This document shows positions 3,024 to 28,987 of a stretch of 64,000 nucleotides of DNA, one piece after another; positions within the stretch are counted from its first letter, which is position 1, and each line of letters opens with the position of its first letter. Below the pieces are notes generated by a model, which saw nothing but the letters and a program-made list of their open reading frames with translations, was not told the origin of the DNA and did not search any database. The stretch is from Bacteroidaceae bacterium (lineage in GTDB: Bacteria > Bacteroidota > Bacteroidia > Bacteroidales > Bacteroidaceae), in NCBI GenBank assembly GCA_017938245.1, contig JAGBBX010000045.1:1-64000 (forward strand), written 5' to 3'. A program made the translations under genes and the position numbers.

Positions 3024-3033
3024 AATTTCTTCG

Positions 3034-3064
3034 CAAATGTAATGATAAGTAAGGAAATTACAAA
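3034..3064 (-). promoter_or_regulatory. Bacteroidetes-type promoter for the small secreted protein
   Basis: On the minus strand TTTG (3064-3061) is followed after 19 nt by TACATTTG (3041-3034), an exact match to the TTTG/TAnnTTTG pattern. The expected start of transcription lies near 3027, only a few bases before the ATG at 3023. Confidence 0.7.
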
Positions 3065-3189
3065 GAATGATTAATGTGTTTGATGTATGTTTTAATTTTT
3101 TTTTAAATAAATTTCCTAAATTGTTTCTCGAATTATGTCGATGTTAAGAGAAATCCTAAAAATAGAGCTGTTTTTACGTTAGTTTTCAC

Positions 3190-3197
3190 TATCTTCG
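3190..3197 (+). promoter_or_regulatory. Candidate -7 element for ettA (TATCTTCG)
   Basis: TATCTTCG departs by one base from TAnnTTTG. No clear -33 TTTG is present at the right distance. The same TATCTTCGCG string precedes lepA and the U32 gene. Confidence 0.5.
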
Positions 3198-3266
3198 CGA
3201 AAAAATTGTATACTGCACTTAATATGTGCTATAAATATATAAAATTCAAAAAATAAATAATAGAAT

Positions 3267-13733: not shown

Positions 13734-15035
13734 ATGATTAAGAACAGAGTAGATATAATTACAATGGGATGCTCCAAGAATCTTGTCGATTCGGAGCATC
13801 TTATGCGTCAACTGCAAGAGTGTGGTTATGAGGTTACACACGACAGTGAGGCTCCCGAGGGGGCAATAGCTGTGATAAATACCTGCGGATTCATAGGAGA
13901 TGCAAAAGAGGAGTCGATAAATATGATTCTCGAGTTTTGCCAGCGAAAAGAGGAGGGCGATCTTGAGCGTCTCTATGTGATGGGATGCCTCTCGGAGCGT
14001 TATCTCGACGAGTTGCGCGAAGAAATTTCGCAGGTCGACCGGTTCTATGGCAAGTTTAATTGGAGCGAACTGCTGGCCGAACTTAAACAAGAGTATAAGC
14101 AGCAGATTGCCAATGAACGTGTTATTACGACTCCCGACCATTATGCTTTTCTGAAAATATCGGAAGGGTGTAATCGTCGATGCGCATATTGTGCAATTCC
14201 AATAATCACAGGCAGTCACGTATCGCGTCCAATGGAAGAGATTCTCGACGAGGTGCGTTATCTCGTTTCACAAGGGGTAAAAGAGTTTCAGATTATAGCA
14301 CAGGAACTTACGTTCTATGGTGTCGACATTTATAAGAAACAGAGTATTGCCGAATTGGTCGAGAAAATTTCGGATATCGAAGGAGTGGAGTGGATTCGTC
14401 TGCACTATGCCTATCCTGCTAACTTTCCGTACGACCTATTGCGTGTAATGCGCGAGAGAGATAATGTCTGCAAATATCTTGATATTGCGCTTCAACACGT
14501 AAGTACCAAGATTCTGAAAAAAATGTTGCGACAGGTGACAAAGGATGATACATACGCGCTTGTCGAGAGAATGCGTGCCGAGGTACCCGGAATTTGTTTG
14601 CGCACTACAATGATGGTAGGATTCCCCGGTGAGACCGACAAAGAGTTTGAGGAGCTTATTGAGTTTATAAAATGGGCAAAATTCGACCGTCTTGGAGCTT
14701 TCGCCTATAGCGAGGAGGATGGCACGTATGCCGCTCTCAACTATCGTGACAGTATTTCGCGCAAAAAGAAACAAGAGAGACTCGACCGCCTTATGGAGGT
14801 TCAGCAAAGAATATCTTCGAACCTAAACTACGAAAAAGTGGGCAAGACATTTAAGACCATTATAGATCGCGTAGAGGGTGAGTATTATATTGGTCGTACC
14901 GAGTTCGACTCGCCCGATGTAGACACCGAGGTACTTGTTCCAATAGCTGACAGGGAACTGAAAATCGGTAATTTCTATAATGTAGAGATTGAGGATGCAA
15001 CCGAATTCGACCTTATGGGTAGAGTGGTTTTCTGA
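13734..15035 (+). CDS. rimO: Ribosomal protein S12 methylthiotransferase RimO
   Basis: 433 residues, a radical-SAM methylthiotransferase that modifies the conserved aspartate of S12. The UPF0004 domain carries three cluster cysteines (MGCSKN, NTCGF, MGCLSER). The radical SAM motif is CNRRCAYC at about residues 146-153. A TRAM domain (about 370-433) closes the protein. RimO rather than MiaB is favoured by the LVDSEHLM segment and the SHVSRP region after the SAM motif. Start 3 nt after the ftsY stop. Confidence 0.95.
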   Translation: MIKNRVDIITMGCSKNLVDSEHLMRQLQECGYEVTHDSEAPEGAIAVINTCGFIGDAKEESINMILEFCQRKEEGDLERLYVMGCLSERYLDELREEISQVDRFYGKFNWSELLAELKQEYKQQIANERVITTPDHYAFLKISEGCNRRCAYCAIPIITGSHVSRPMEEILDEVRYLVSQGVKEFQIIAQELTFYGVDIYKKQSIAELVEKISDIEGVEWIRLHYAYPANFPYDLLRVMRERDNVCKYLDIALQHVSTKILKKMLRQVTKDDTYALVERMRAEVPGICLRTTMMVGFPGETDKEFEELIEFIKWAKFDRLGAFAYSEEDGTYAALNYRDSISRKKKQERLDRLMEVQQRISSNLNYEKVGKTFKTIIDRVEGEYYIGRTEFDSPDVDTEVLVPIADRELKIGNFYNVEIEDATEFDLMGRVVF

Positions 15036-15054: not shown

Positions 15055-15339
15055 ATGAATAACAAAGAGTTTGTCGGTAAATTGGCTCATCGAAATAATA
15101 TGTCTGTAGCAGAGACAACTGCCGCAGTAGATGGGCTTGTAGAACTGCTTACAGATAGGCTGAAAGAGAATGACCAGATAAATATTTCGGGATTTGGAGT
15201 ATTCGAGGTGAAAATGCGTCGCGAGAGAATATCTGTTAATCCAAAAACGGGACAGCGTATGCTTATCCCGCCAAAGATTGTACCGGCTTTTCGTCCAAGC
15301 AGTAAGATGAAAGACAAATTCAAAGAGAGTGAGGAGTAG
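15055..15339 (+). CDS. HU family DNA-binding protein
   Basis: 94 residues from the ATG at 15055; the frame is open upstream only because it overlaps rimO. It has the HU/IHF fold: a helical pair (1-40), the ISGFGVFEV strand, and the DNA-grasping arm with RRERISVNPKTG and a proline (PPKIVPAF) at the tip, all intact. A small cytoplasmic nucleoid protein. It sits 5 nt ahead of the membrane-bound HU-LysM gene, which suggests that the two are translated together. Confidence 0.92.
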   Translation: MNNKEFVGKLAHRNNMSVAETTAAVDGLVELLTDRLKENDQINISGFGVFEVKMRRERISVNPKTGQRMLIPPKIVPAFRPSSKMKDKFKESEE

Positions 15340-15344
15340 GACTT

Positions 15345-16478
15345 ATGGATGCAAAATTAAATCATTCCGATTTTAGTGCTTTGCTATCGAAGCAACTCGA
15401 TATTTCGGCTTCCAAAGCCGAACAATTTACAAAGGCTTTTTTTGACATTCTTATAGAGGGATTAGAGAGCGATGGCATTGTGAAGATAAACGGTTTGGGC
15501 ACATTCAAGATGATTGATGTGGCAAGTCGAGGCAGTGTGAATGTAAATACAGGCGAGAAAATCGAAATTAAGGGACATCGTAAGTTGACTTTTATTCCAG
15601 CCGATACTCTTAAGGATAAAATAAACCAACCCTTTGCTATGTTCGAGCCTGTTGAGGTTGACGATGATTATGTTGATGATAGTGATGAGACACAGCCTGT
15701 CGAGCCTTCATCTGATGAACAAACAGCCGAGTCGGTATTAGCCGAGCCTTCATCTGACGAACAAACAGCCGAGTCGGTATTAGCCGAGCCTTCATCTGAC
15801 GAACAAACAGTCGAGCCGGTATTAGTCGAGCCTTCATCTGATGAACAAACAGCCGAGCCGGTATTAGCCGAGCCTTCATCTGACGAACAAACAGCCGAGC
15901 CGGTATTACTCGAGCCTTCATCTGACGAACAAACAGCCGAGCCGGTATTAGCCGAGCCTTCATCTGACGAACAAACAGCCGAGCCGGTAGAAACAACAAA
16001 GAGTAAGAAGGGACATATAGTTATATCTACCTTATTTATAATAAATATGATTATAACCTTCTCAATTATAATAGCTGTTGTAATAATTTTCTATAGTCAA
16101 TTCAGCAGTAATGAAAAAATAGATGAGAGTAATAATATTGTACCTGAACTCATAGCTAAAGATACGCTTGAAAAGACTGTATTATCAGATACTGTTGACA
16201 AGCAGCCCGAGGTATTAGAGGAATTTGTTATGGTAGAGGCAATGAACAATCTTACTCTGGCGCAGATAACTATAAAAGATACAGCAATTTATAGGATAAA
16301 AGGAACAAAGACAGTGCATCGAGTAGGGCTTGATGAGACATTGACAAAGATATCTCTGCTCTATTTCGAAGATAAACGATTCTGGCCCTACATTGTGCAA
16401 TATAACAAAATAAAAAATTATAACAGCCTTGAGATTGGTACAGAACTGCTTATACCCAATCTGGTACCACGAAAATAG
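15345..16478 (+). CDS. Membrane-anchored HU-like/LysM protein with acidic repeat linker
   Basis: 377 residues. Residues 1-90 resemble HU (KINGLGTFKMIDV, SVNVNTGEKIEIKGHR). Residues 100-118 are acidic (DDDYVDDSDE). Residues 120-215 are seven tandem copies of EPSSDEQTAEPVLA, coded by a 42-bp DNA repeat. KSKK (219-222) then precedes one membrane helix (about 223-250), and a LysM-like domain ends the protein (about 323-374, with the LysM-like GTELLIPN end). Positive-inside topology puts HU in the cytoplasm and LysM in the periplasm. I infer a DNA-to-peptidoglycan tether; no such function is proven here. Confidence 0.85.
   Translation: MDAKLNHSDFSALLSKQLDISASKAEQFTKAFFDILIEGLESDGIVKINGLGTFKMIDVASRGSVNVNTGEKIEIKGHRKLTFIPADTLKDKINQPFAMFEPVEVDDDYVDDSDETQPVEPSSDEQTAESVLAEPSSDEQTAESVLAEPSSDEQTVEPVLVEPSSDEQTAEPVLAEPSSDEQTAEPVLLEPSSDEQTAEPVLAEPSSDEQTAEPVETTKSKKGHIVISTLFIINMIITFSIIIAVVIIFYSQFSSNEKIDESNNIVPELIAKDTLEKTVLSDTVDKQPEVLEEFVMVEAMNNLTLAQITIKDTAIYRIKGTKTVHRVGLDETLTKISLLYFEDKRFWPYIVQYNKIKNYNSLEIGTELLIPNLVPRK
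15702..15989 (+). repeat. 42-bp tandem repeat, 7 copies (last partial)
   Basis: Unit starts GAGCCTTCATCTGAYGAAC and encodes EPSSDEQTxExVLx. Copies begin at 15702, 15744, 15786, 15828, 15870, 15912 and 15954; the last is 36 nt. Substitutions are few (A/V, S/P, A/V/L), so expansion looks recent. Confidence 0.95.
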
Positions 16479-16562
16479 CAGTAATGAGTTAAAGTTTGCT
16501 TAACGCAAACAGTTGTTAAGTCTATTTTAATATAATTAACACGTTTAGTTAATATAAAGACT

Positions 16563-16570
16563 TAAATTTG
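16563..16570 (+). promoter_or_regulatory. -7 element for the moxR-bat operon
   Basis: TAAATTTG matches TAnnTTTG, 34 nt before the moxR start. The -33 region lacks a TTTG at the usual spacing. A small GTTTGC/GCAAAC hairpin (16494-16510) upstream, without a T tract, may separate it from the HU-LysM gene. Confidence 0.5.
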
Positions 16571-16604
16571 TCAAGCTAAAAATTATATAATAAACATTGA
16601 AAAT

Positions 16605-17600
16605 ATGAGTGCACCTATTGACATTCGCGAATTGAACGAAATGATTGAAAGACAGAGTGGTTTTGTAACCAATCTGCAGACAGGAATGGATCAGATTATT
16701 GTCGGGCAGAAGCATCTTGTTGAGTCGCTGCTCATTGGACTTCTGGCCGATGGACACGTACTCCTGGAAGGTGTTCCCGGATTGGCTAAAACATTGGCTA
16801 TTAAAACGTTGTCGAGTCTTATCGATGCCGATTTTAACCGTATACAGTTTACTCCCGACCTTTTGCCTGCCGATGTGATAGGTACAATGGTATATAGTCA
16901 GAAAGATGAGTCGTTTAAGCCTAACAAAGGCCCGGTGTTTGCAAATTTCGTTCTTGCCGATGAGATTAACCGTGCTCCGGCAAAGGTGCAGAGTGCACTG
17001 CTCGAGGCTATGCAGGAGCGTCAGGTGACAATTGGTAAGGAGACATTCTCGCTTCCCGAGCCTTTCCTTGTGCTCGCCACACAGAACCCGATAGAGCAGG
17101 AAGGTACCTATCCTCTGCCCGAGGCACAGGTCGACCGTTTTATGCTGAAAGTGGTTATCGGATACCCCGAGCTTTCGGAAGAGAAACGTATCATACGTCA
17201 GAATATTACAGGAGAGAAGATTTCTGTTCGTCCAATCCTTAAACCACAGGAGATTATAGAGGCTCGTAAGGTGGTACGTCAGGTTTATCTTGATGAGAAA
17301 ATCGAGCAGTATATTGCCGATATTGTATTTGCAACACGCTATCCCGACAAATACGGAATGAAAGAACTCAAGGATATGATTGCTTTCGGAGGTTCGCCTC
17401 GTGCATCTATAAATTTGGCTCTTGCTGCACGCGCATACGCCTTTATTAAGCGTCGCGGATACGTTATTCCCGAGGATGTACGTGCCGTTGCCCACGATGT
17501 GCTGCGTCATAGAATAGGACTCAGTTACGAGGCCGAGGCAAGCAATATGACATCCGATGAAATTGTAAGCCAGATTCTGAATAAAGTCGAGGTACCCTAA
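16605..17600 (+). CDS. MoxR family AAA+ ATPase
   Basis: 331 residues. MoxR ATPases act as chaperones for VWA-domain partners. The AAA_3 core shows EGVPGLAKT (Walker A), LADEINRAP (Walker B), and the TQNPIEQEGTYPLPEAQVDRF stretch that is near-invariant in the family (sensor 1 and arginine finger region), followed by a lid domain. It is the first gene of a run that continues with DUF58, two VWA proteins and TPR proteins, the standard order of the Bacteroides aerotolerance (bat) operon. Confidence 0.95.
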   Translation: MSAPIDIRELNEMIERQSGFVTNLQTGMDQIIVGQKHLVESLLIGLLADGHVLLEGVPGLAKTLAIKTLSSLIDADFNRIQFTPDLLPADVIGTMVYSQKDESFKPNKGPVFANFVLADEINRAPAKVQSALLEAMQERQVTIGKETFSLPEPFLVLATQNPIEQEGTYPLPEAQVDRFMLKVVIGYPELSEEKRIIRQNITGEKISVRPILKPQEIIEARKVVRQVYLDEKIEQYIADIVFATRYPDKYGMKELKDMIAFGGSPRASINLALAARAYAFIKRRGYVIPEDVRAVAHDVLRHRIGLSYEAEASNMTSDEIVSQILNKVEVP

Positions 17601-17609
17601 TTTCTTTAT

Positions 17610-18479
17610 ATGGAGACCACAGAGCTTATAAAAAGAGTTCGTAAAATTGAGATAAAGACCCGAGGACTGTCCTACAATATTTTTGCAGGGCAGTACCATA
17701 GCGCCTTTAAGGGACGTGGTATGTCGTTCAGCGAGGTGCGTGAGTATCAGTATGGCGACGATATGCGCGACATCGATTGGAATGTGACTGCACGTTTCAA
17801 TAAACCATACGTCAAGGTCTTTGAGGAGGAGCGTGAGCTTACTGTGATGCTACTTATCGATGTTTCGGGAAGTCTTGATTTTGGTACGGTGAAACAGACC
17901 AAGCGCGATATGATTACCGAGATTGCAGCCACCATTGCATTTGCTGCAATACAGAATAACGACAAGATTGGTGTAATATTCTTCTCAGATAGAATAGAGA
18001 AGTTTATTCCCCCACAAAAGGGACGTAAGCACATTCTTTATATCATACGTGAACTTCTAAATTTCGAGCCTCAGAGTAATAGAACCGATGTAAAAGTTCC
18101 ACTCGAGTTCTTGACAAATGCACTGAAGAAACGCTCTACTGCATTTATAATGAGTGATTTTATAGCGGAACCCGACTATCAGAATGCACTCACTATTGCC
18201 AACCGTAAACACGATGTTGTTGCTCTGCAGGTGTACGACCGTCGACTTGCGGAGTTACCGAGCATTGGACTTATGAAAGTGTTGGATGCCGAGAGCGGTG
18301 AGGAGATGTATATCGATACCTCTTCGTCAAAAGTGCAGCGTGCACAGCGTGAGTGGTGGCAGCAGCAGCGCGAGACTCTCTCGGAAATTCTTAAGAAGAG
18401 CAGGGTCGATTCTGTTTCGGTGCGTACCGATGAAGATTATGTAAAGGCTCTTATGACACTGTTTGCCCAGCGTGGGTAA
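17610..18479 (+). CDS. DUF58 domain-containing protein (Bat operon)
   Basis: 289 residues without signal peptide or membrane helix. The DUF58 signature GRGMSFSEVREYQYGDDMRDIDWNVTA-type region occupies residues about 32-58, and a degenerate VWA-like fold follows (LLIDVSGSLDFG, a DxSxS metal site). Such proteins are partners of MoxR ATPases. It starts 9 nt after moxR and precedes the membrane members of the operon by 28 nt. Confidence 0.92.
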   Translation: METTELIKRVRKIEIKTRGLSYNIFAGQYHSAFKGRGMSFSEVREYQYGDDMRDIDWNVTARFNKPYVKVFEEERELTVMLLIDVSGSLDFGTVKQTKRDMITEIAATIAFAAIQNNDKIGVIFFSDRIEKFIPPQKGRKHILYIIRELLNFEPQSNRTDVKVPLEFLTNALKKRSTAFIMSDFIAEPDYQNALTIANRKHDVVALQVYDRRLAELPSIGLMKVLDAESGEEMYIDTSSSKVQRAQREWWQQQRETLSEILKKSRVDSVSVRTDEDYVKALMTLFAQRG

Positions 18480-18507
18480 TGCTGTAGTATCAAAATTCTA
18501 TAGATAA

Positions 18508-19578
18508 ATGAAAAGAGTATTCTCTATATTATTCCTGTTGTCGATGCTTCTTATTGGAGCACAAGCGCAGAGTGTTGTAGTAAATGCCGAGATTGACTCG
18601 GTACAGCGCTTTATAGGACAACAGGCAAAAGTTAAGTTGGTTGTCAGTTACGATGCCGACAAGCACCTTGCTATGCCCGATTTTGATAAAGAATTGGTTG
18701 AGGGCGTCGAAATTTTGGGACACAATTCAGATACCGTTGCACTAAACGAAGGTAAACGCTATTCGGTAACACAAGAGTACACTGTAACCTCTTTTGATAC
18801 AGCGTTGTACGTTATACCTCCATTCGAAGTGATTGTCGATTCAACATCTTACTATTCGCAGGAGTTGGCATTGGCTGTATATTCATTCCCGGTAGATACT
18901 GCAAACGTCGACCAATTTTTTGGCCCTAAGGATATTTGGGAGATTCCGCTTGAATGGCAAGACGTAAAGCACAGTGTTTACTATTCGCTTATGCTAATTC
19001 TGTTTGTGGCTGCCCTTGTGTGGGTAATTATCTCGTACCGAAACAATAAACCCATAATAAGAATAGTAAAGGTTAAACCTAAATTGCCTGCCCACGTTAT
19101 AGCATTAGACGAACTGAACAGGATAAAAAATGAATCGGATTGGCGCACCTCGAGCAATCATAAGGAGTTTTATATTGCTATTACCGATGCACTGCGTTGT
19201 TATTTGAATGAGCGTTTCGGGTTTAATGCTACCGAGATGACAAGCGACGAAATTATCGATAATTTGAAGCAACATATCGATAAAGATGCTCTTAAGGAGC
19301 TAAGAGCGATACTTGCTACAGCCGACCTTGCAAAATTTGCAAAATATAAACCTATGATGAACGAGAACGACCATAACCTAATGGGAATCATTGAGTTCGT
19401 CGATAATACTAAACCCGATGCCGGCGATGTGACTCCTCAGCCCACCGAGCGCAAGGTTGTGGATAAACGCTCGGCTAAGGAGAAACGTTTGTTGCTTGTA
19501 GGGATTGTCTTGCTGTCGATTGTCTCTATTGCGTTGCTTGTGCTGTTGATAATGGATTTATACAATATTTTTATTTAA
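18508..19578 (+). CDS. Bat operon membrane protein (DUF4381-like)
   Basis: 356 residues. A signal peptide (about 1-20, ends QAQS) is followed by a beta-rich periplasmic domain (21-150), a membrane helix near 155-175 (YYSLMLILFVAALVWVII), a cytoplasmic segment with LDELNRIKN and a helical region typical of DUF4381 proteins, and a second helix at the C-terminus (about 330-353). This gene regularly sits between the DUF58 gene and batA in the Bacteroidetes. Its role is unknown; association with the VWA proteins is inferred from position. Confidence 0.8.
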   Translation: MKRVFSILFLLSMLLIGAQAQSVVVNAEIDSVQRFIGQQAKVKLVVSYDADKHLAMPDFDKELVEGVEILGHNSDTVALNEGKRYSVTQEYTVTSFDTALYVIPPFEVIVDSTSYYSQELALAVYSFPVDTANVDQFFGPKDIWEIPLEWQDVKHSVYYSLMLILFVAALVWVIISYRNNKPIIRIVKVKPKLPAHVIALDELNRIKNESDWRTSSNHKEFYIAITDALRCYLNERFGFNATEMTSDEIIDNLKQHIDKDALKELRAILATADLAKFAKYKPMMNENDHNLMGIIEFVDNTKPDAGDVTPQPTERKVVDKRSAKEKRLLLVGIVLLSIVSIALLVLLIMDLYNIFI

Positions 19579-19584
19579 TAGAAT

Positions 19585-20574
19585 ATGGTTCTTCTTAATA
19601 TAGGCTATCTGCTTCTGTTTATACCGCTTATAGGATATATTGTTTGGTATATTCTAAGAGGCCGACACTGCAACCCGTCGATGAAAGTGTCTACGGTATT
19701 GCCATATATGAAAGGTGTAAAAAGCTATAAGAATTATCTTCTGCACCTGCCGTTTGTGTTGCGTGTAGTAACTCTTTCTATGGTGATAATTGTTCTTGCA
19801 CGTCCACAATCGACCAACAGTTGGCAGAATACCGAGGTCGAAGGAATAGATATTATGCTTGCTATGGACGTCTCTACAAGTATGTTGGCAATGGACTTTA
19901 AGCCCAACAGAATAGAGGCTGCCAAGGAGGTTGCCGCCGAATTTATAAACGGTCGTCCCAACGATAATATCGGTCTTACCATTTTTGCAGGTGAAAGCTT
20001 TACTCAATGTCCATTGACAATAGACCACACAGTGTTGCTAAATATGCTGAATGGTGTAAAATGTGATATCGCTGCTCAGGGAATTATTGAAGACGGTACA
20101 GCCATAGGAATGGGTGTTGCCAATGCTGTAAGTCGTTTGAAGGACAGTAAGGCAAAATCGAAAGTGATAATACTGCTCACCGATGGTTCGAACAACGGCG
20201 GAGAAATTTCTCCGGAGATGTCGGCCGATATTGCAAAACAATTTGGAATAAGAGTCTATACCATTGGTGTAGGAAAGAATGGCGAAGCGCCTTATCCCTA
20301 TTATGGTGGACAGATTATAAATGTTCCGGTTGAGATTGACGAGAATACTCTTCAAAAAATAGCTGATATTACAGACGGTAATTACTATCGTGCAACAAGT
20401 AATACCAAACTAAAAGAGATTTACGAACAGATAGATAAATTGGAGCGCACTAAGTTGAATGTCAAAGAGTTTTCTAAACGCGAAGAGGAATATCTTGTTT
20501 TTGCAATAATGGCATTCGCAGCGCTTTTCTTAGAGATTTTGTTGCGTAACACAATATTAAAGAGAATACCTTAA
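19585..20574 (+). CDS. batA: VWA domain protein BatA
   Basis: 329 residues. Two helices at the N-terminus (about 5-22 and 52-70), a von Willebrand A domain (about 85-290) facing the periplasm or cytoplasm, and a helix at the C-terminus (about 305-325). The metal site is complete: DVSTS (DxSxS), with TDGSNNGG further on. In B. fragilis the bat genes were linked to aerotolerance. It begins 6 nt after the preceding gene and 13 nt before batB. Confidence 0.9.
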   Translation: MVLLNIGYLLLFIPLIGYIVWYILRGRHCNPSMKVSTVLPYMKGVKSYKNYLLHLPFVLRVVTLSMVIIVLARPQSTNSWQNTEVEGIDIMLAMDVSTSMLAMDFKPNRIEAAKEVAAEFINGRPNDNIGLTIFAGESFTQCPLTIDHTVLLNMLNGVKCDIAAQGIIEDGTAIGMGVANAVSRLKDSKAKSKVIILLTDGSNNGGEISPEMSADIAKQFGIRVYTIGVGKNGEAPYPYYGGQIINVPVEIDENTLQKIADITDGNYYRATSNTKLKEIYEQIDKLERTKLNVKEFSKREEEYLVFAIMAFAALFLEILLRNTILKRIP

Positions 20575-20587
20575 ATAAAGAGTAGTT

Positions 20588-21613
20588 ATGAAGTTTGCAA
20601 ATCCCGAATTCTTTTATCTTTTTATACTGCTTGCAGTGTTGCTTGCAGTATATATCTACTCTAATTATAAGAGGGCCAAAAATCTTAAAGCTTATGGTGA
20701 GTATCGTTTGGTCGAGAAACTTATGCCCGATGTCTCATTTGTGCGTCCGGCAATAAAATTCTGGCTTTCGTTCATTGCTTTGGCACTGCTTATTGTTGTA
20801 CTTGCACGCCCGCAGTTCGGTTCCAAGAAGGAGAGTGTGACACGTCAGGGTATCGAGACTGTAATTGCGCTCGATATTTCAAACTCAATGCTTGCCGAGG
20901 ATATTGCTCCCAATCGTTTGGAAAAGGCAAAGAATATAATATCGAAATTGATTGATAAATTAGAGAACGATAAAGTGGGTCTTATTGTCTTTGCCGGCGA
21001 TGCTTTTGTGCAACTGCCTATAACAAATGATTTTGTATCGGCAAAGATGTTTTTGGAGAGTATTACGCCGTCACTTATTTCGCGTCAGGGAACCGACATC
21101 GGTGCTGCTATAAATATGGCAATGAAGAGCTTTACTCCAAATGAGGAGGTAGGCAAGGCGATAATAGTAATAACCGACGGTGAGAATCACGAGGGTGGTG
21201 CCGAGGAGGCCGCTAAAGCTGCAACTGAGAAAGGTATGACAGTTTATATGCTGGGTGTTGGTACCACTGATGGCGCTCCGATACCTACAGGCAAGGCAAA
21301 TGAGTTCCGAAAAGACAAAAGCGGAAATGTTGTAATGACAAAGCTTAATGAGCAGATGGGGCAACAGATTGCAAAAGCAGGAGGTGGAGCCTACATAAGG
21401 GTGGACAACACCAATAACGCTCAGAAGCTGTTATTAAAGGAATTAGATAAACTTTCCAAAGATGAAGTAACAACCGAAGTGTATAGCGACTACAACGACC
21501 AGTTCGAGTTCATAGCTTGGGTTGTCCTCTTCCTTCTTTTATTGGATGTTCTGCTGTTACCCGGCAAAAGTCGACTTACACGTAAATTTAAACTATTTGA
21601 TGAACAAAAATAA
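20588..21613 (+). CDS. batB: VWA domain protein BatB
   Basis: 341 residues, a paralogue of BatA with the same layout: two N-terminal helices, VWA domain with DISNS metal-site motif and VITDGENHEGG, C-terminal helix (WVVLFLLLLDVLLL, about 312-328). It differs from BatA by an insertion around APIPTGKANEFRKD. BatA and BatB are thought to form a membrane complex with the TPR proteins. It ends 6 nt before batC. Confidence 0.9.
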   Translation: MKFANPEFFYLFILLAVLLAVYIYSNYKRAKNLKAYGEYRLVEKLMPDVSFVRPAIKFWLSFIALALLIVVLARPQFGSKKESVTRQGIETVIALDISNSMLAEDIAPNRLEKAKNIISKLIDKLENDKVGLIVFAGDAFVQLPITNDFVSAKMFLESITPSLISRQGTDIGAAINMAMKSFTPNEEVGKAIIVITDGENHEGGAEEAAKAATEKGMTVYMLGVGTTDGAPIPTGKANEFRKDKSGNVVMTKLNEQMGQQIAKAGGGAYIRVDNTNNAQKLLLKELDKLSKDEVTTEVYSDYNDQFEFIAWVVLFLLLLDVLLLPGKSRLTRKFKLFDEQK

Positions 21614-21619
21614 TATAAT

Positions 21620-22327
21620 ATGCTTAGAATGAGGTATATATATCTATTGCTTTTGTTGCTGCCTGTTACCACGATGACAGCACAGAAGAGCTACCGCGAA
21701 CACCTTAGAAGCGGTAATAGAATATACAGCGACAGTATATATGATAAGTCCGAGGTAGAGTATCGCAAAGCCATTGAGAAAGATGGAAAAGATGCCGACG
21801 CTCACTTTAATCTTGGCAATGCATTGCTTTTTCAGAATAAAGCCGAAGAGGCATTGAAAGAGTATGAGCTTGCAGCAATGTACGAGACCGATAAAGAGCG
21901 CCTTGCACAGGTTTATCACAATACAGGTGTTCTGATGCAAGCTGCAAAGGATTATAAAAATGCAGTTGAGGCATATAAGCAATCGTTGAGAAATAATCCT
22001 AATGACCACGAGACACGCTATAATCTTGCACTTGCTATGAGCCAGCTGAAAAAAGAAGAGCAGCAGAATCAAGACCAACAGCAAGATAAGCAGGACGAGC
22101 AACAGCAGCAAGAACAACAGCAGCAGAATCAAGACCAACAGCAACAGAAAGACCGGCAACAGCAACAGAAAGACCAACAACAGCAACAGCAAAATCAGCA
22201 GCAACAGATGTCGAAAGAGAATGCCGAACAGTTGTTAGAGGCTGCAATGCAGGACGAGAAAGAGACCCAGGAAAGAGTGAAGAAACTGTTGCAGCTAAAA
22301 GGCAAGAAATTAGAAAAAGATTGGTAA
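21620..22327 (+). CDS. batC: TPR protein BatC with glutamine-rich tail
   Basis: 235 residues. A signal peptide (LLLLLLPVTTMTAQ) leads into three or so TPR units (about 35-145; HFNLGNALLFQNKAEEALKEY, VYHNTGVLMQAAKDYKNAVEAY). Residues about 150-195 are almost only Q, with D, E, K, N and R, coded by CAG/CAA runs at about 22065-22210. A charged helix ends the protein. TPRs suggest a scaffold role for the Bat VWA proteins. The Q-rich linker length probably varies between strains. Confidence 0.88.
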   Translation: MLRMRYIYLLLLLLPVTTMTAQKSYREHLRSGNRIYSDSIYDKSEVEYRKAIEKDGKDADAHFNLGNALLFQNKAEEALKEYELAAMYETDKERLAQVYHNTGVLMQAAKDYKNAVEAYKQSLRNNPNDHETRYNLALAMSQLKKEEQQNQDQQQDKQDEQQQQEQQQQNQDQQQQKDRQQQQKDQQQQQQNQQQQMSKENAEQLLEAAMQDEKETQERVKKLLQLKGKKLEKDW

Positions 22328-22352
22328 AAACAGTATCAAACCATTAGTTGAA

Positions 22353-22378
22353 CGATGAAAAACCGATATTTTTCATCG
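22353..22378 (+). promoter_or_regulatory. Perfect 10-bp hairpin between batC and batD
   Basis: CGATGAAAAA (22353-22362) and TTTTTCATCG (22369-22378) pair exactly around a 6-nt loop in the 88-nt batC-batD gap, the largest gap inside the operon. No T run follows. A TATATTCG string at 22387-22394 could be a weak internal -7 element. Confidence 0.6.
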
Positions 22379-22415
22379 GATTATGCTATATTCGCAGAAT
22401 ATTTCAGTTTTAGAG

Positions 22416-24239
22416 ATGAAAAGAGTATTTTTTGCAATAATAGGAATTATTTTATTTTCGGCAGCACTCTTTGCCGACGAGGTATCGTTTGTTATTTCTG
22501 CACCAAAATCGGTAGTGGTAGGCCGGAATTTTCAAGTTCAGTATACAGTTAATAGTACAAAGGTTGGTGAGCCTATTGTTCCGTTTGCCGATTTCAAGCT
22601 ATTGGCAGGGCCATATCAAAGCACTTACAGCCGTATGATGAGTAGTGAGGTAAATGGAGTATATACTACTCATTCCGAAAATGGAATAACATATACATAT
22701 ACTCTTTTAGCCGAGAAAGAGGGTACATTCACGCTACCGGCTGCAACAATAGAGGTTGAAGGCAAAAAAATCTCTTCCAATACTGCTAAAATTAAAGTGT
22801 TGCCACAAGATAAGACTAACCAATCGGCAAACGGTCGTTCGCGTCGTGATAACCGTGAGCAGTGGTCATCGTCGGTAAATATTTCTAATGAGGAATTGTT
22901 TGTACGTGCAATCATAAATAAAACAACTGTGTACGAGCAAGAGGCTGTACTGCTTACATTCAAGGCATATACTCTTGTGAATCTTACTAATTTGAGCATT
23001 CCTAACATAGATATAAAAGATTGTGTTTTGCAGAGTGTCGACCTACCACAGAGTAGAGAGGGTGACATAGAACATTATAATGGAACGAATTATCGTGTAT
23101 ATACGTGGCAGCAGTTTGTACTTTTCCCACAAAAAAGCGGTGAGATTGCCATTCCCTCAATAGAGTATGAGGCAACAGTAGGTGTAGGAGGTGATGTCTT
23201 TGACATTATGTTTAATGGGCGCCCAAGTTCTGTGAAAAAAGTACTGCGTACTGCACCGATAAAACTTAATGTAAAAGAACTGCCGGCAGGCAAACCAATA
23301 GGTTTCTCGGGTGGTGTAGGAAATTTCAGATTGAAATCGTCTCTTAGCACTAACGAACTTAAAGCCAATGAGGCTGTTACACTGCGTCTGGTAATTTCGG
23401 GTGTAGGTAATATGAAACTGATTAAGACCCCCGAAATTGAATTCCCAGAGAGTTTCGAGGTTTATGACCCCAAGATAGAGAACCGCTTTAAACTCACAAA
23501 CTCGGGATTCAGTGGCGACAAGGTGATAGAGTATCTTGCTATTCCACGTCAGCCGGGAGAATTTACAATACCTGCGCCCAAATTATCTTATTTCGACACT
23601 CAAAGTGGTGAATATAAGACAATTGAGACCGAGAGTTATACGCTGAATGTGGCCAAAGGCAAAGAGGGTAGTAACGAGGTCGTTGCATCGTTTGTAAGCA
23701 AAGAGGAACTGAAAATGCTTGGACAAGATGTCCGTTATATAAAGACCGGTGCTGCAAAACTGCAAAAAGCAGGTGAGTATTTCTTTGCGTCGACAACCTA
23801 TCTGCTATGCTATATTGTTCCTCTATTGCTTTTTGCAATATACATAATGCTGTATTACAAACAGATGCGCGACAATGCCGATATATCGGGACTGCGCATA
23901 AAAAAGGCTAACAGCATTGCAGTAAAGCGCCTTAAGGTATCTCAGAAACTCCTGAAAGAGAACAACAAAGAGCTGTTCTACGACGAAATTCTTAAGGCAT
24001 TGTGGGGATACGTAAGCGATAAACTTAATATTCCTGTGTCGCGTCTCACAAAGGATAATGTTGCAGCCGAACTATCGGCAAAGGGTGTAAGTGCAGATAT
24101 TATTTCGGAATTGGAGACTGTGCTTAACGAGTGTGAGTTTGCTCGTTACGCTCCGGGTGATGCTGCCGCGGCAATGGACAATGTCTACAAGAAGGCAATG
24201 GAGATAATAGGGAAAATGGAAAATACTATAAAGAGATAA
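22416..24239 (+). CDS. batD: BatD protein (oxygen tolerance family)
   Basis: 607 residues from the ATG at 22416, where MKRVFFAIIGIILF starts a signal peptide (cut near LFAD); the ATG at 22383 would add 11 residues and overlap the candidate promoter. A long beta-rich periplasmic region (about 25-440) of repeated Ig-like folds is followed by a membrane helix (about 475-497) and a cytoplasmic helical tail. It starts 88 nt after batC and is followed 4 nt later by batE. Confidence 0.9.
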   Translation: MKRVFFAIIGIILFSAALFADEVSFVISAPKSVVVGRNFQVQYTVNSTKVGEPIVPFADFKLLAGPYQSTYSRMMSSEVNGVYTTHSENGITYTYTLLAEKEGTFTLPAATIEVEGKKISSNTAKIKVLPQDKTNQSANGRSRRDNREQWSSSVNISNEELFVRAIINKTTVYEQEAVLLTFKAYTLVNLTNLSIPNIDIKDCVLQSVDLPQSREGDIEHYNGTNYRVYTWQQFVLFPQKSGEIAIPSIEYEATVGVGGDVFDIMFNGRPSSVKKVLRTAPIKLNVKELPAGKPIGFSGGVGNFRLKSSLSTNELKANEAVTLRLVISGVGNMKLIKTPEIEFPESFEVYDPKIENRFKLTNSGFSGDKVIEYLAIPRQPGEFTIPAPKLSYFDTQSGEYKTIETESYTLNVAKGKEGSNEVVASFVSKEELKMLGQDVRYIKTGAAKLQKAGEYFFASTTYLLCYIVPLLLFAIYIMLYYKQMRDNADISGLRIKKANSIAVKRLKVSQKLLKENNKELFYDEILKALWGYVSDKLNIPVSRLTKDNVAAELSAKGVSADIISELETVLNECEFARYAPGDAAAAMDNVYKKAMEIIGKMENTIKR

Positions 24240-24243
24240 GAAA

Positions 24244-24999
24244 ATGAAGGCAATTATATATTTTATACTAATGCTTATCCCTTGTGCTGCAGTTGCTCAG
24301 GTGGATGCAGTGGGTAAGGAGGTTGGAGACAGTGCATACGCAAAGGGCGATTATCAGGCGGCAATAGAGGCGTATAAAGCAATTCTTGCCGATAACAGCG
24401 TCTCACCCGAGATATATTACAATCTTGGAAATGCCTACTATAAAGCCTCTGAGATTGGAAAAGCGATACTGAATTACGAACGTGCTCTGTTGCTCGATCC
24501 CTCGGACGAAGATATACGCTTTAATCTTGAACTTGCCCAAAGTAAGGCGGTGGATAAGGTAGACGATGGATTCAAACTCTTTTTGACAGAGTGGATAGAG
24601 GCTCTTGTAAATGTAGCAAGTATGGGAACGTGGGCTGTAATTGCTATAGTCACATTCGTTGTTATGCTCATTGCTTTGCTGTTGCTGTTCTTTGGAAAAT
24701 CAATAGCGTTACGTAAGGCTTCTATGTGGTGCTCAATAATAATGCTTATCATTACTTTATTTGCCAATTACGCAGCAATGAGCCATTACTCGAAACTTAC
24801 CTCAAGAGAGATGGCAATTATAATGTCACCCACAGTAACAGCCAAGAGTACCCCCGATAATTCGGGAACAAATCTTTTTGAGGTTCACGAAGGACGAAAG
24901 GTGAGGGTCTCTGACGACTCTATGAAGGAATGGAAAGAGATTGAACTTGAGAATGGTACTGTAGGTTGGGTACCGGCTAACGCACTCGAAGTTATTTAA
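24244..24999 (+). CDS. batE: BatE, TPR and SH3-like protein
   Basis: 251 residues. Signal peptide (about 1-19), two or three TPRs (about 25-105; ISPEIYYNLGNAYYKASEIGKA-like), two membrane helices (about 125-160), then a bacterial SH3-like domain (about 190-250) that ends WKEIELENGTVGWVPANALE. It closes the bat set and starts 4 nt after batD. Membrane scaffold role inferred. Confidence 0.88.
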   Translation: MKAIIYFILMLIPCAAVAQVDAVGKEVGDSAYAKGDYQAAIEAYKAILADNSVSPEIYYNLGNAYYKASEIGKAILNYERALLLDPSDEDIRFNLELAQSKAVDKVDDGFKLFLTEWIEALVNVASMGTWAVIAIVTFVVMLIALLLLFFGKSIALRKASMWCSIIMLIITLFANYAAMSHYSKLTSREMAIIMSPTVTAKSTPDNSGTNLFEVHEGRKVRVSDDSMKEWKEIELENGTVGWVPANALEVI

Positions 25000-25023
25000 T
25001 AAACACAATTATTTTAAAGGGGA

Positions 25024-25734
25024 ATGTTCGATTTTGAAAAACTCGTAGAGGCCGACAAATATCTGTTGCTCACGCTCAATGGTAGTGAATCGCTATTTTG
25101 GGATGGCTGTATGACGGTATATACCACAATGATGGTGTGGATACCATTGGCTGTCGTGTTGCTGTATGTGCTTATCAAGAACAATAATATAAAAACATTT
25201 TTTATATTGCTGATAGCTATTGCATTGGTATTTGTTATTACCGATGGTGTGACCTCTACAATATGTAAACCGCTGTTCGAAAGATTCCGTCCTACACGTG
25301 ACCCGGAACTTATGTATATTGTAGACGTTGTAAATGGTTACAGATGTGCTGCATACGGCTTTATGTCGAGTCACGCTGCCAATTCTTTCGGAATTGCTAC
25401 CTTTATAATGTTGCTTATGCGCAATAGAGCTCTCTCTCTCTCACTGTTTATATGGGCAATGATAAACTGCTATTCGAGAATATATCTTGGTGTGCACTAT
25501 CCCGGTGATATTCTTGGTGGTATTACTGTAGGTGTATTGGGTGGAGTGTTGATGTATAAGCTCTATAAGTTTGTATGCAATAAAATTCGAAATGCAGGTG
25601 GACGCGATTGGATATCTACGCAATATACAAAGAGTGGATACCTTGTGTCGGATATTCATCTGTTGTTATTGGTACTTTATGGTACCTTTGCTGCAATACC
25701 TATAATAGCTTTTTTTGTGCTTCAGCAGCATTGA
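25024..25734 (+). CDS. PAP2 superfamily membrane phosphatase
   Basis: 236 residues with about six helices. The three PAP2 motifs are present: KPLFERFRP (KxxxxxxRP), MSSHAANS (PSGH-like, with SSH) and SRIYLGVHYPGDILGG (SRxxxxxHxxxD). Candidate substrates are undecaprenyl diphosphate or lipid A phosphate. It begins 24 nt after batE and may be read with that operon. A weak CCGAT/ATCGG stem (25737-25757) lies in the 33-nt gap to the convergent gene. Confidence 0.9.
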   Translation: MFDFEKLVEADKYLLLTLNGSESLFWDGCMTVYTTMMVWIPLAVVLLYVLIKNNNIKTFFILLIAIALVFVITDGVTSTICKPLFERFRPTRDPELMYIVDVVNGYRCAAYGFMSSHAANSFGIATFIMLLMRNRALSLSLFIWAMINCYSRIYLGVHYPGDILGGITVGVLGGVLMYKLYKFVCNKIRNAGGRDWISTQYTKSGYLVSDIHLLLLVLYGTFAAIPIIAFFVLQQH

Positions 25735-25767
25735 TTCCGATGTTATTGTTGTATCGGTCGATAAAGC

Positions 25768-26265
25768 TTAATACATCTCTATATATTCATAGCTGTTGCC
25801 AACCTCGCCAAGATAGCGCATAAACTCGCTTTGCGAGATTACCACAGTTGCGTGGTTGTCGTTGGGATGAAAACTCAGTGATTGGTAATTCTTTAGATTG
25901 GCATCGAGAAACAGATGCACGTGATTGTCAAGGTCATTGATAAGTCCAAAAGGAGATACCGAGCCGGGTTGCAGTCCAAGATAACGCTCCATACGCTGTG
26001 GCGATGCAAAAGATAGCTTTCCTTGATGCAGACGTTTCTCGAGGTCGTGAATATCCAGGTCTTGTTCGCAATCGAGCACTACGAGGTAGTGACGGTTTCC
26101 TTTGTGATTGCGAAAAAAAAGGTTTTTACAATGCTTAGAGCCGTCATTGCGCCATTGTGTGCGCGCAATTTCTATAGTGGGGGCCTCGTCGTGTGTGTAC
26201 CAAGAGTGTTTAATACCTCTCTCATTAAGATAGCTTAGTACTTTCTCAATTCTTTCGCTCTGCAT
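25768..26265 (-). CDS. Prolyl-tRNA editing protein (YbaK/ProX-type deacylase)
   Basis: 165 residues, a free-standing editing domain that hydrolyses mischarged Ala- or Cys-tRNA(Pro). Motifs include KNLFFRNHKGNRHYLVVLD, the lysine-containing LSFASPQRMERYLGLQPGSVSPFGLIND segment, and HPN near the end, as in ProX/PrdX proteins. Cytoplasmic. Same strand as the lyase gene upstream (13 nt gap), so likely cotranscribed. Confidence 0.9.
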   Translation of the reverse strand: MQSERIEKVLSYLNERGIKHSWYTHDEAPTIEIARTQWRNDGSKHCKNLFFRNHKGNRHYLVVLDCEQDLDIHDLEKRLHQGKLSFASPQRMERYLGLQPGSVSPFGLINDLDNHVHLFLDANLKNYQSLSFHPNDNHATVVISQSEFMRYLGEVGNSYEYIEMY

Positions 26266-26278
26266 TATCGTATAACTC

Positions 26279-27322
26279 TTATAGTTTTTCTATTGCACTG
26301 CATAGCGCATCTACCGACTCGGTGCGTGTTGCCCAGCTTGTGCAGAAACGTACAATATCGCGCTCGTCGTCGTACTTACCCCAATATTCAAAGACGAATT
26401 CTTTGCCAAGAGTCTCCTGTTGTGCTTTTGTGAGAAGCGGAAATTGCATATTGGTAACAGACCCGTTCCATAATTCTATTCCTTTTGCCTCGAATGTTCT
26501 ACGTATGCGCATTGCTTGTGTATCGGCGTGCTTGGCAAGTGTGAAATAGAGGCAATTTTCGCCGCCTTGCATCAGTTCCTGGAACTGTAAGCCAAGCAGA
26601 CGGCCTTTTGCCAACATTCCTCCGTGTTGCTTTATTGCGTAGCGGAAACTACGTTGCATCTCCTTGTCGCTGAACACTACTGCCTCGCCAAAAAGGGCAC
26701 CTACTTTTGTGCCTCCAATATAGAAGGCATCGCACAGACGTGCAAGGTCGGATAGGGTGACGTCGCATCCCTCGGCCTGTAGGCCATATCCCATACGTGC
26801 ACCGTCGATGAAAAGATATAGTCCGTTTTTATGGCAGAATTCCGATATTGCGCTAAGCTCGGCTTTGCTATAGATTAGTCCGTTCTCGGCAGGAAACGAG
26901 AGATACACCATACCGGGTTGCACCGTGTGCTCGTGAGCGTGGTCGTTCCAATGATTATCGAAGCACTCTTTTATCTTTGCAAGTGATAGACGACCGTCGT
27001 TGGTGGATATTGCCAGCACTTTATGTCCTGTAGCCTCGGGAGCGCCGGTCTCGTGTACGTTTATGTGTCCGCTTTCGGCCGATATTACTCCCTGGTAGCT
27101 GCGCAGCAGTGCATCTATTACTGTTACATTTGTCTGTGTTCCACCAACGAGGAATTGTACTCCTAACGTGTTGTCGGCACAATGCTTGCGTATTGTTTCG
27201 CGAGCCTGAGAGCAATAGGGATCCTCACCGTATCCGGCAGTCTGGTCGAAGTTTGTTCTTACAAGTGCATCAAGAATAGAGGGGTGCGCTCCCTCGATAT
27301 AATCGGAATCGAATCGTATCAT
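26279..27322 (-). CDS. Threonine aldolase-like PLP lyase
   Basis: 347 residues of the beta-eliminating lyase family that includes low-specificity L-threonine aldolase (threonine to glycine and acetaldehyde). I chose the ATG at 27322 (MIRFDSDYIEGAHPSIL) because longer starts overlap the FHA gene and family members begin this way. HINVHETGAPEATGHK and FIDGARMGYGLQ carry the cofactor-binding histidine and aspartate, and GGTKVGALFGEAVV the Schiff-base lysine. Specificity is not certain. Confidence 0.85.
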   Translation of the reverse strand: MIRFDSDYIEGAHPSILDALVRTNFDQTAGYGEDPYCSQARETIRKHCADNTLGVQFLVGGTQTNVTVIDALLRSYQGVISAESGHINVHETGAPEATGHKVLAISTNDGRLSLAKIKECFDNHWNDHAHEHTVQPGMVYLSFPAENGLIYSKAELSAISEFCHKNGLYLFIDGARMGYGLQAEGCDVTLSDLARLCDAFYIGGTKVGALFGEAVVFSDKEMQRSFRYAIKQHGGMLAKGRLLGLQFQELMQGGENCLYFTLAKHADTQAMRIRRTFEAKGIELWNGSVTNMQFPLLTKAQQETLGKEFVFEYWGKYDDERDIVRFCTSWATRTESVDALCSAIEKL

Positions 27323-27362
27323 TTTATAGTGTGTAGTCGGTAGTTTTGCACACAACGGCTTG

Positions 27363-27860
27363 TTATTCCTCACCTCCCGGTGTGTGTAGGATGAGTGTTG
27401 TTGCGCCTAATGTTATAATTGCGCCATCTTCGATGCGCAGTCTCTCGCGGTCGCCCAATATGCGGTTCATTACAAAGGTGCCTGTTACGCTTGGATTGTC
27501 TCGCAGAGTGTAAACAAGTTCGCCTGCACCATTGCGCTTTACATTAAGGATACAATGCCTGCGGTCCATACTCGGGTCGCGTGTTTCAATGGGATGGGAT
27601 ATTACAGTGCCTTTGTTGTATCGTCCTATAACATTGTCTCCTTCAGTTAATTGTAGCGTTTGTTTAAAGCAAAACTTATTCTCTATTACAACTAAATGGC
27701 CAAAATCCTGTTCGGGTACCTCTTCCTCTTTTTCACCTATTCTTATGGTGAAGCTCTTTCGGCAGTGATCGCACTCGAATACAAGGGCCATTCCCTCGGG
27801 GTAGCCGTTATCATCGAATACAATAGGGTGGTCGCACTTGGGACAAGTAACTCTTTTCAT
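27363..27860 (-). CDS. Zinc-ribbon/FHA domain protein
   Basis: 165 residues. Residues 1-42 form a zinc ribbon (CPKC at 5-8 and CDHC at 30-33). An FHA domain follows (about 70-160) with GRYN, SMDRRHC and N..SVTGTFV, the core residues for phosphothreonine binding. Cytoplasmic. It lies 26 nt downstream of the HU/SPOR membrane gene on the same strand, which hints at a shared envelope or signalling role. Partners are unknown. Confidence 0.85.
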   Translation of the reverse strand: MKRVTCPKCDHPIVFDDNGYPEGMALVFECDHCRKSFTIRIGEKEEEVPEQDFGHLVVIENKFCFKQTLQLTEGDNVIGRYNKGTVISHPIETRDPSMDRRHCILNVKRNGAGELVYTLRDNPSVTGTFVMNRILGDRERLRIEDGAIITLGATTLILHTPGGEE

Positions 27861-27886
27861 CCTTTAATCCTTAAATTTGAAGCGTC

Positions 27887-28987
27887 TTAATTGTTGAGTA
27901 TCCAGGCATCGGGGAATGTTGCCTGAATTGCTGGTAGATTATCGATAGCCTCTTTCTCTGTTGTGTATGTGGCAACTGCTACGCGGTGACGTTTGCCGCA
28001 CACAACAACCTTGTAGTCCGATTGTAGTTTTACACTCAGCTCCTTAATTGCCAGTTGGGCATTGTCGGCATTTGGAGAACTTGCAACAATTATGTGAAAC
28101 TGTTGTGTCTGTTCGCTCTTAGGCTTCTCTTGTTGCATTGCTGTATTGTTTGCTGCACCTTCTCCCAAACCGCTCTCTTGCGGGATGGCAGTGGGCAAAA
28201 CAGCAGGCAAATTGTTGTTATTCTCTTTTGGAGGTGATACAACCGATTGATAATCGTTTATTTGAGTGTTAGATGTCGTAGGGCAGGGATATGTGCTTTC
28301 TTTGGCTTTTGTTTTTGAAAAGCCAATAGGTGATATCTCGCATTCTGTTGTACTTGATATTTGCTGCGGAGCCTCAGATGTGAGTTGCTGCATCATTGAA
28401 ATGTGTTCGGACGATGCAAAGTTACCCATTGACGCCTTAATACTCTTCTCGAAAGCCTGTTCGCTTAAAGGTGTTACGAATATGAAAGTGAGTATTACTG
28501 CTGCTATTGCTGCAATATATTTGCTTATGTCTCGGCGTTTTATTGTAATTGTACGCTCCTCGATGTTATGCACTTGAGCTATCTGCAAAGGCATAAAGCC
28601 AAAATTCTCGGGGTCGTCTATGCTGTTTGCCGCAGCTTCGAACATAACCTCGCCATTGATGTTCATTGAGAATGTGCCAAGCTCGCCGAAACGCACGCAT
28701 CCTTTGCGTGAGAGGGTGCGCTTTAATGAGAGTATATCGTTGTGTAACATTGCCGCTGCAGCCTCGTAGGGGAGGTTGTGGACATTCATATACTGCGATG
28801 TAAGAAGTGCATCGTTCACCTTTACCTGAGGGTTGAATCCTAAGGCGCGGTGAGGCGGCATAAATGTCTGATCTTCTATGTTGTAGTGTGCAGGTACGCT
28901 GTGTGCCAAAAAAGCTCCGAAATCGGGTATAATAACGCAATTATGGCGTGCTATAAGGTGCACTATATGTTGTTCTAAATTTTTCAT
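27887..28987 (-). CDS. HU-CCDC81-like membrane protein with SPOR domain
   Basis: 366 residues from the ATG at 28987. Residues 1-135 match the two-part bacterial HU-CCDC81 module (start LEQHIVHLIARHNCVIIPDFGAF; second half LSRKGCVRFGELGTFSMNING). IKRRDISK precedes one membrane helix (about 157-173), giving an N-in topology. A low-complexity periplasmic stretch leads to a SPOR domain (about 296-366; HIIVASSPNADNAQLAIKEL). SPOR domains bind bare septal peptidoglycan, so the protein may link DNA-bound or polymerised HU modules to the wall. Confidence 0.87.
   Translation of the reverse strand: MKNLEQHIVHLIARHNCVIIPDFGAFLAHSVPAHYNIEDQTFMPPHRALGFNPQVKVNDALLTSQYMNVHNLPYEAAAAMLHNDILSLKRTLSRKGCVRFGELGTFSMNINGEVMFEAAANSIDDPENFGFMPLQIAQVHNIEERTITIKRRDISKYIAAIAAVILTFIFVTPLSEQAFEKSIKASMGNFASSEHISMMQQLTSEAPQQISSTTECEISPIGFSKTKAKESTYPCPTTSNTQINDYQSVVSPPKENNNNLPAVLPTAIPQESGLGEGAANNTAMQQEKPKSEQTQQFHIIVASSPNADNAQLAIKELSVKLQSDYKVVVCGKRHRVAVATYTTEKEAIDNLPAIQATFPDAWILNN

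Follow-up and report, generated by a model that had tools for sequence, protein, structure and literature searches.

A conserved HU and HU-LysM gene pair as a candidate tether between nucleoid and cell wall in Bacteroidota

Overview

A 64,000-nucleotide stretch of DNA from a gut bacterium of the Bacteroidaceae (assembly GCA_017938245.1, contig JAGBBX010000045.1, positions 1 to 64,000; hereafter the window) encodes a protein that joins an N-terminal HU domain, by way of an acidic repeat linker and a single transmembrane (TM) helix, to a C-terminal LysM domain, and directly upstream of this HU-LysM gene lies a gene for a small soluble HU. We consider the best explanation of the pair, at a probability of roughly 60%, to be an asymmetric HU heterodimer in which one subunit is held to the cell wall and so links nucleoid and envelope, because the constant pairing of the genes, the clades formed by the two HU types, their natural fusion in some relatives and an asymmetry of their arms in one genus all fit it. 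A second protein on the opposite strand (hereafter the SPOR protein) carries two HU-CCDC81 domains, a TM segment and a SPOR domain. Both architectures had been described in a first-pass annotation of the sequence and are borne out by Pfam, relatives and, for the HU-LysM protein, a structural model (Table 1); that annotation's observations are confirmed, and its interpretation is supported for the HU fold, the topology (as the more likely one) and the partner gene, and unsupported for the idea that the LysM version arose as an independent type (see below).

Bacteria have no spindle, and it is still debated how they keep their chromosomes in place and separate them with respect to the envelope. 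If real, a clamp made of two HU subunits, one of them bound to the wall, would connect DNA mechanically and directly with peptidoglycan.

Table 1. Positions of the genes, domains and repeats discussed in the text.
Feature	Position	Strand	Basis
rimO, upstream neighbour	13734..15035	+	Open reading frame (ORF)
Small soluble HU, proposed partner subunit; 94 residues from conserved ATG (MNNKEF)	15055..15339	+	PF00216, 93.3 bits
HU-acidic linker-TM-LysM gene, 377-residue product	15345..16478	+	ORF, Pfam, AlphaFold2, alignment profile
HU domain, residues 5-97	15357..15635	+	Pfam, model, Foldseek, profile
Tandem repeat behind the acidic linker; 42-bp unit (14 residues), 6.9 copies	15701..15989	+	
Single TM helix, residues 222-253, after KSKK	16008..16103	+	Model; hydropathy peak 230-248
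LysM domain, residues 316-375	16290..16469	+	Pfam, model, profile
Zinc-ribbon/FHA gene, next downstream of the SPOR gene	27363..27860	-	PF00498, 42.9 bits
HU-CCDC81_1-HU-CCDC81_2-TM-SPOR gene, 366-residue product	27887..28987	-	Pfam, alignment
SPOR domain	27896..28102	-	29/29 rows at E ≤ 0.01; below curated cut-off in window protein
Hydrophobic TM segment after IKRRDISK	28466..28519	-	Conserved in alignment; placed by eye
HU-CCDC81_bac_2 domain; arm region short (by eye)	28610..28807	-	Pfam
HU-CCDC81_bac_1 domain	28811..28987	-	Pfam

Domains and modelled fold of the HU-LysM protein

The HU domain of the HU-LysM protein is certain. Residues 6-94 match PF00216 at 66.4 bits, where the cut-off is 22.4, and the same family is matched at E ≤ 0.01 in all 46 rows of a diverse HU-LysM set that includes the window. 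In an AlphaFold2 model built on a 42-row alignment (mean predicted local distance difference test score (pLDDT) 73.2, predicted template modelling score 0.34), residues 7-97 mostly reach pLDDT 92-97 and take up an HU fold bearing its beta-arm, as the first-pass annotation had expected of residues 1-90; the 50 listed of 331 Foldseek matches in the PDB are HU/IHF-type proteins, with no LysM chain among those 50. Compared with the PDB as a profile, the same alignment matches IHF at its N-terminus (2iie_A, E = 9.3e-18). The protein is not a member of the HU-CCDC81 families: PF18175 reaches 14.6 bits against a cut-off of 35, and PF18174 is not listed.

The LysM assignment is supported by relatives and by a confidently modelled fold, though it scores slightly below the Pfam cut-off (PF01476, 17.7 bits against 20.9, residues 325-371). 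The C-terminal residues are modelled as a LysM-type strand-helix-helix-strand at pLDDT 92-96, the C-terminus of the alignment profile matches LysM chains in the PDB (Kbp, 7pvc, E = 2.3e-9; TsaP, E = 6.8e-4; and others), and Pfam LysM is found at E ≤ 0.01 in 13 of the 46 diverse rows, the window included (best 4.5e-8). The LysM stretch of the window alone has no significant match in the PDB, the best (E = 0.13) being a LysM protein.

Between the two domains the model contains one helix, and most of the linker falls below pLDDT 50. The repeat that encodes the linker is near-perfect (95% matches over its 6.9 copies), and in relatives the segment that joins HU domain and helix is between 25 and 360 residues long, with a net acidic charge in 131 of 133. 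Lysine and arginine counts on the helix flanks, taken from the 132 sequences with a clear helix, are higher on the N-terminal side in 105, equal in 18 and lower in 9, so that by the positive-inside rule an N-terminus in the cytoplasm and a C-terminus outside is the more likely topology, in line with the first-pass annotation.

The two genes are paired across two classes

In the window the soluble HU gene ends 5 nucleotides upstream of the HU-LysM gene. We assessed how general this arrangement is with all ORFs of at least 190 residues that carry a tethered-type HU domain in the fetched loci (a length limit that excluded none), from which copies identical over residues 6-150 were removed. This left 134 distinct ORFs, the window's own included, 76 of them from named records and 58 from other genomes. 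A small HU ORF (hereafter the partner) lies directly upstream on the same strand in all 134, across two classes of the phylum; it overlaps the HU-LysM start in 72, and the largest gap is 43 nucleotides. A clear hydrophobic helix is present in 132 of the 134 ORFs, and our own LysM profile matches 125. The nine that it does not match comprise one that runs off its contig (L099), two that stop before the LysM domain (L116, L118) and six with a LysM-like end or an extra tail.

The pairing is not carried by the rimO neighbourhood, since an ORF with the rimO motif is found in 98 of 110 locus rows outside family f48, a family of another class, versus none of 25 f48 rows (duplicates included), and the three f48 loci that were read have neighbours other than rimO. 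A scan for promoters and terminators gave 8 promoter-like sites against 4.9 ± 2.3 in shuffled sequences and 1 terminator-like site against 1.4 ± 1.6, and was not used as evidence.

Natural fusions and unequal halves

The two HU types separate in a 95-row tree, in which all 39 tethered HU halves form one clade (100/96) and all 39 partners another (100/98); the alignment has 95 columns and the inner forks are uncertain. Bacteroidales tethered halves group together (95/59), as do f48 partners (98/89), and the histories of the two halves agree only roughly, because one Bacteroidales partner (L254) falls among those of f48.

By an established line of reasoning, which concerns joint action rather than binding as such, genes that are fused in some species usually act together in others. 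In one other genus, that of genome G411, 57 of 60 genomes were matched and the best 30 loci of these 57 were read. Four of the 30 (L292, L294, L296, L310) encode partner HU, tethered HU, TM helix and LysM domain in a single chain; in 25 the two genes are separate neighbours, and the remaining locus is truncated where its contig ends. With the 134/134 pairing, these fusions support the suggestion, made in the first-pass annotation, that the soluble HU could be the partner of the HU-LysM protein. On a tree of 28 of these 30 loci the fused state requires at least two changes (gains or losses), and no bootstrap tree has only one. Frame lengths had suggested 14 fusions in this genus, a figure that we rejected as these frames ran through stops and reading of the ORFs gave four.

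In the same genus the arms of the two halves differ. Among the 28 of the 30 loci in the tree for which it was measured (L302 and L306 have no measurable arm), the tethered half has an arm of at most 16 residues in 16, of 19-24 residues in two and of full length (26) in 10. The partner arm is unshortened in 29 of 29 loci, at 20 residues in 27 and 23 in two where the pattern took an earlier glycine, and its intercalating proline is kept in 23 of the 29. The tethered half of the window has a full-length arm with valine in place of this proline. In the wider set the tethered half has valine or isoleucine at the intercalating position in 95 of 101 sequences outside f48 (proline in two, glutamate in one, a gap in three) and proline in all 33 of f48; the partner has proline in 98 of 101 and 33 of 33, respectively. 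The idea that absence of this proline distinguishes tethered halves was considered and rejected: ordinary soluble HUs have proline in 10 of 17 and isoleucine in the other seven (L002, L270, L274, L275, L277, L281, L282), so its absence says little by itself, and the residue is retained in each of the 33 tethered halves from f48. Median net charge is 0 for the tethered half, +5 for the partner and +6 for other soluble HUs, which suggests that the grip on DNA would come mainly from the partner.

Proposed mechanism and alternative explanations

Under the proposed mechanism the soluble HU and the HU-LysM protein together make up a single, asymmetric HU dimer. Its small subunit would be soluble and bear the full DNA-clamping arm, and the tethered subunit would dimerise with it through its own HU domain. 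A flexible acidic linker and one membrane helix would hold this tethered HU to a periplasmic LysM domain gripping peptidoglycan. The complex would then have one grip on DNA inside the cell and another on the wall beyond the membrane, and the nucleoid would be tied to the envelope. The analysis shows the domains, the folds of HU and LysM, the constant pairing of the genes, their natural fusion and the arm asymmetry of one genus; pairing and fusion are indirect evidence for a dimer that binds DNA. From there we infer heterodimer formation, the topology, the binding of DNA and of wall, and a role in nucleoid positioning or division.

The main rival holds that the HU pair has lost DNA binding and become a protein-protein module, of the kind reportedly proposed for eukaryotic CCDC81, whose dimer brings some cytoplasmic protein to the envelope. 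The neutral charge of the tethered half, the short arm that it has in 16 of 28 loci in one genus, the valine or isoleucine that replaces its intercalating proline in 95 of 101 sequences outside f48 and the acidity of the linker are all what such a module might show. The partner subunit fits it poorly: its arm is unshortened in all 29 loci of that genus, with proline in 23 of them and in 131 of 134 of the wider set, and it is nearly as basic as a soluble HU, while the isoleucine in seven of 17 ordinary soluble HUs deprives the proline loss of its weight when taken alone. We regard this explanation as unlikely. A membrane-bound regulator, whose LysM domain senses the wall and whose HU pair alters the expression of genes near its binding sites, would have the one-pass architecture and cytoplasmic DNA-binding fold of other membrane-bound regulators. 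It is improbable in view of the long disordered linker and of the general nature of HU, which is an architectural protein and not a sequence-specific regulator; moreover, the MoxR-type gene that follows the HU-LysM gene of the window is not seen in the 1.5-kb flanks of three f48 loci. Least probable is an old tandem duplication kept by gene order and devoid of joint function, which would explain two HU paralogues side by side but not their retention in 134 of 134 cases over two classes with unlike neighbourhoods, their fusion in four of 30 loci of one genus or the unequal change of the halves there.

Several results weigh against the wall-anchored heterodimer itself. On the side of the wall, 33 of the 46 diverse rows have no Pfam LysM match at E ≤ 0.01, the closest LysM domain in the PDB by sequence is that of the potassium-binding protein Kbp, and some LysM domains do not bind peptidoglycan. 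On the side of the DNA, the tethered half may not bind it at all, as its net charge is near 0, and the acidic linker could repel it; shortening of the arm was measured in one other genus only, the arm of the window's tethered half being full-length, and a gap at the intercalating position occurs in only three of the 101 tethered rows outside f48. The outer flank of the helix is the more positive in nine of 132 sequences, and constant pairing could reflect co-regulation and not a dimer. Finally, 125 of the 149 genomes sampled from the order gave no HU-LysM match at E ≤ 1e-25, so most of them seem to manage without it and the need for it is not general.

The SPOR protein as a possible fused relative of the HU pair

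The SPOR protein is a member of both HU-CCDC81 families, with 87 bits against a cut-off of 26 for HU-CCDC81_bac_1 (PF18174) and 48.2 against 35 for HU-CCDC81_bac_2 (PF18175), and its start at 28987 is a conserved ATG, as annotated. In the profile search that the first-pass annotation had proposed as a check, HU and both HU-CCDC81 domains thus exceed their cut-offs, and SPOR (PF05036), at 19.3 bits against 21, falls slightly below, as LysM does. SPOR is nevertheless matched at E ≤ 0.01 in all 29 rows formed by the window and 28 relatives of its genus (best 2.8e-11), and also in 29 of 29 HU-CCDC81 proteins, the window's included, from the 30 best-scoring loci of the phylum sample (90 genomes matched; L215, a cut-short ORF, was left out). 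The alignment profile of the SPOR protein has no match in the PDB at E ≤ 1, and a single-sequence model (mean pLDDT 39.5) is too poor to judge the fold.

Profile comparison suggests that the two HU pairs are related. For HU-CCDC81 domain 1 the score against the partner is 46.4, against the tethered half 32.3 and against other HUs 24.3; for domain 2 the tethered half comes first with 39.5, ahead of other HUs (36.7) and the partner (36.3). When the comparison was repeated on 40 random subsamples, the partner was the better match of domain 1 in 39 when set against the tethered half and in all 40 when set against other HUs. For domain 2 the tethered half outscored the partner in 35 and other HUs in 37, though the difference is small; the subsamples overlap, so that the trials are not independent. 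The domain order is also common to the SPOR protein and the HU operon, running from a partner-like to a tethered-like HU, a helix and a wall domain. We therefore read the SPOR protein as a possible fused relative of the HU pair, and the two tethers may share an ancestral HU pair. The proposal that the LysM version is a second, independent type is left unsupported by the resemblance of the HU-CCDC81 domains to the partner (domain 1) and, weakly, to the tethered half (domain 2).

In the proposed mechanism the SPOR protein would be the single-chain counterpart, carrying both HU domains itself and directed at glycan that lies exposed in the septum; its role as a chromosome tether is predicted. A broader and tentative proposal, which we think possible rather than probable, is that Bacteroidota own an ancient asymmetric HU dimer mooring the nucleoid to peptidoglycan, its arm-bearing half free and its other half, able to lose the arm, bound to the wall from the membrane, and that HU-CCDC81-SPOR and, through it, the eukaryotic centrosome protein CCDC81 are a fused offshoot. 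The HU pair would then offer an origin for the HU-CCDC81 family.

Family f48 also has proteins in which one short-armed HU domain is followed by an acidic linker, a helix and a SPOR domain. In the three loci read (L288, L289, L290) a TolQ/ExbB-type gene follows the HU-SPOR gene within 15 nucleotides, an adjacency that hints at a tie to the envelope-constriction motor. At L288 (HU-SPOR gene 1197-2879, TolQ/ExbB-type gene 2895-3602) Pfam gives 32.9 bits for SPOR and 103.3 bits for MotA_ExbB; Pfam was run on L288 only, and the calls at L289 and L290 were made by eye.

Comparison with known systems

The HU-CCDC81 family (Pfam PF18174/PF18175) is already published (Burroughs et al. 2017, Cell Cycle 16:1093). 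The HU-CCDC81-SPOR proteins of Bacteroidota, to which the SPOR protein of the window belongs, resemble HU-LysM in combining HU domains, one membrane helix and a wall-binding domain; HU-LysM differs in being split over two genes in most loci examined, in its PF00216-type HU, in having LysM instead of SPOR and in its acidic linker. The 2017 paper on HU/IHF proteins reportedly covers the SPOR fusion of HU-CCDC81 and predicts a role in chromosome partition, and its abstract is said to propose eukaryotic CCDC81 as a protein-binding module.

IHF and HU dimers share the fold with HU-LysM, whose best PDB matches are IHF, and IHF has two unlike subunits, as proposed for the HU pair; HU-LysM differs in that one subunit is membrane-bound with a LysM domain and that the arm is shortened in some relatives. 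FtsN, DamX, similar SPOR proteins and MapZ have a cytoplasmic module, one helix and a wall-binding module outside, but their cytoplasmic parts bind division proteins and are not known to have an HU fold. Among the papers listed in searches of an open-licence library, none dealt with HU-LysM or with the two-gene HU and HU-LysM arrangement, a weak sign that the pairing with LysM is new.

Distribution among genomes

Of the 37 genomes searched in the genus of the window, 34 have a match to the LysM protein and 32 one to the SPOR protein, and the closest named relatives (L065-L101) are mostly Bacteroidaceae from ruminant guts, going by the best 80 of 115 relatives. The pair is also present in the cultured termite-gut species Dysgonomonas macrotermitis DSM 27370 (locus L109). 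In the sample of 149 genomes from the order, 24 gave an HU-LysM match at E ≤ 1e-25 and 131 a PF18174 match at E ≤ 0.001; among 395 genomes of the phylum PF18174 was matched in 90, in 76 of them over the cut-off. The HU-LysM profile matches 379 of these 395 at E ≤ 1e-8, most of the matches listed being ordinary soluble HU, and frames longer than 300 residues among the matches listed come from families f1, f26 and f48. These searches scored only some candidates per genome, so absences are soft. The survey of co-occurrence that the first-pass annotation had called for yields no argument for a joint system: HU-CCDC81 is present in 20 of the 24 genomes of the order with HU-LysM and in 111 of the 125 without, and the LysM and SPOR tethers show no signal of co-occurrence across the 149.

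Neighbouring genes

As annotated, a zinc-ribbon/FHA gene adjoins the SPOR gene, and an ORF with the CPKC motif follows the SPOR gene in the 30 listed loci of the genus, 24 by a strict pattern and six, with a longer start, by eye. Its FHA domain suggests a phosphorylation-dependent partner. After the HU-LysM gene, positions 16605-20574 of the window encode what, from the look of the sequences, we take to be a MoxR-type ATPase, von Willebrand-type membrane proteins and a DUF58-like protein, a Bat-operon-like set.

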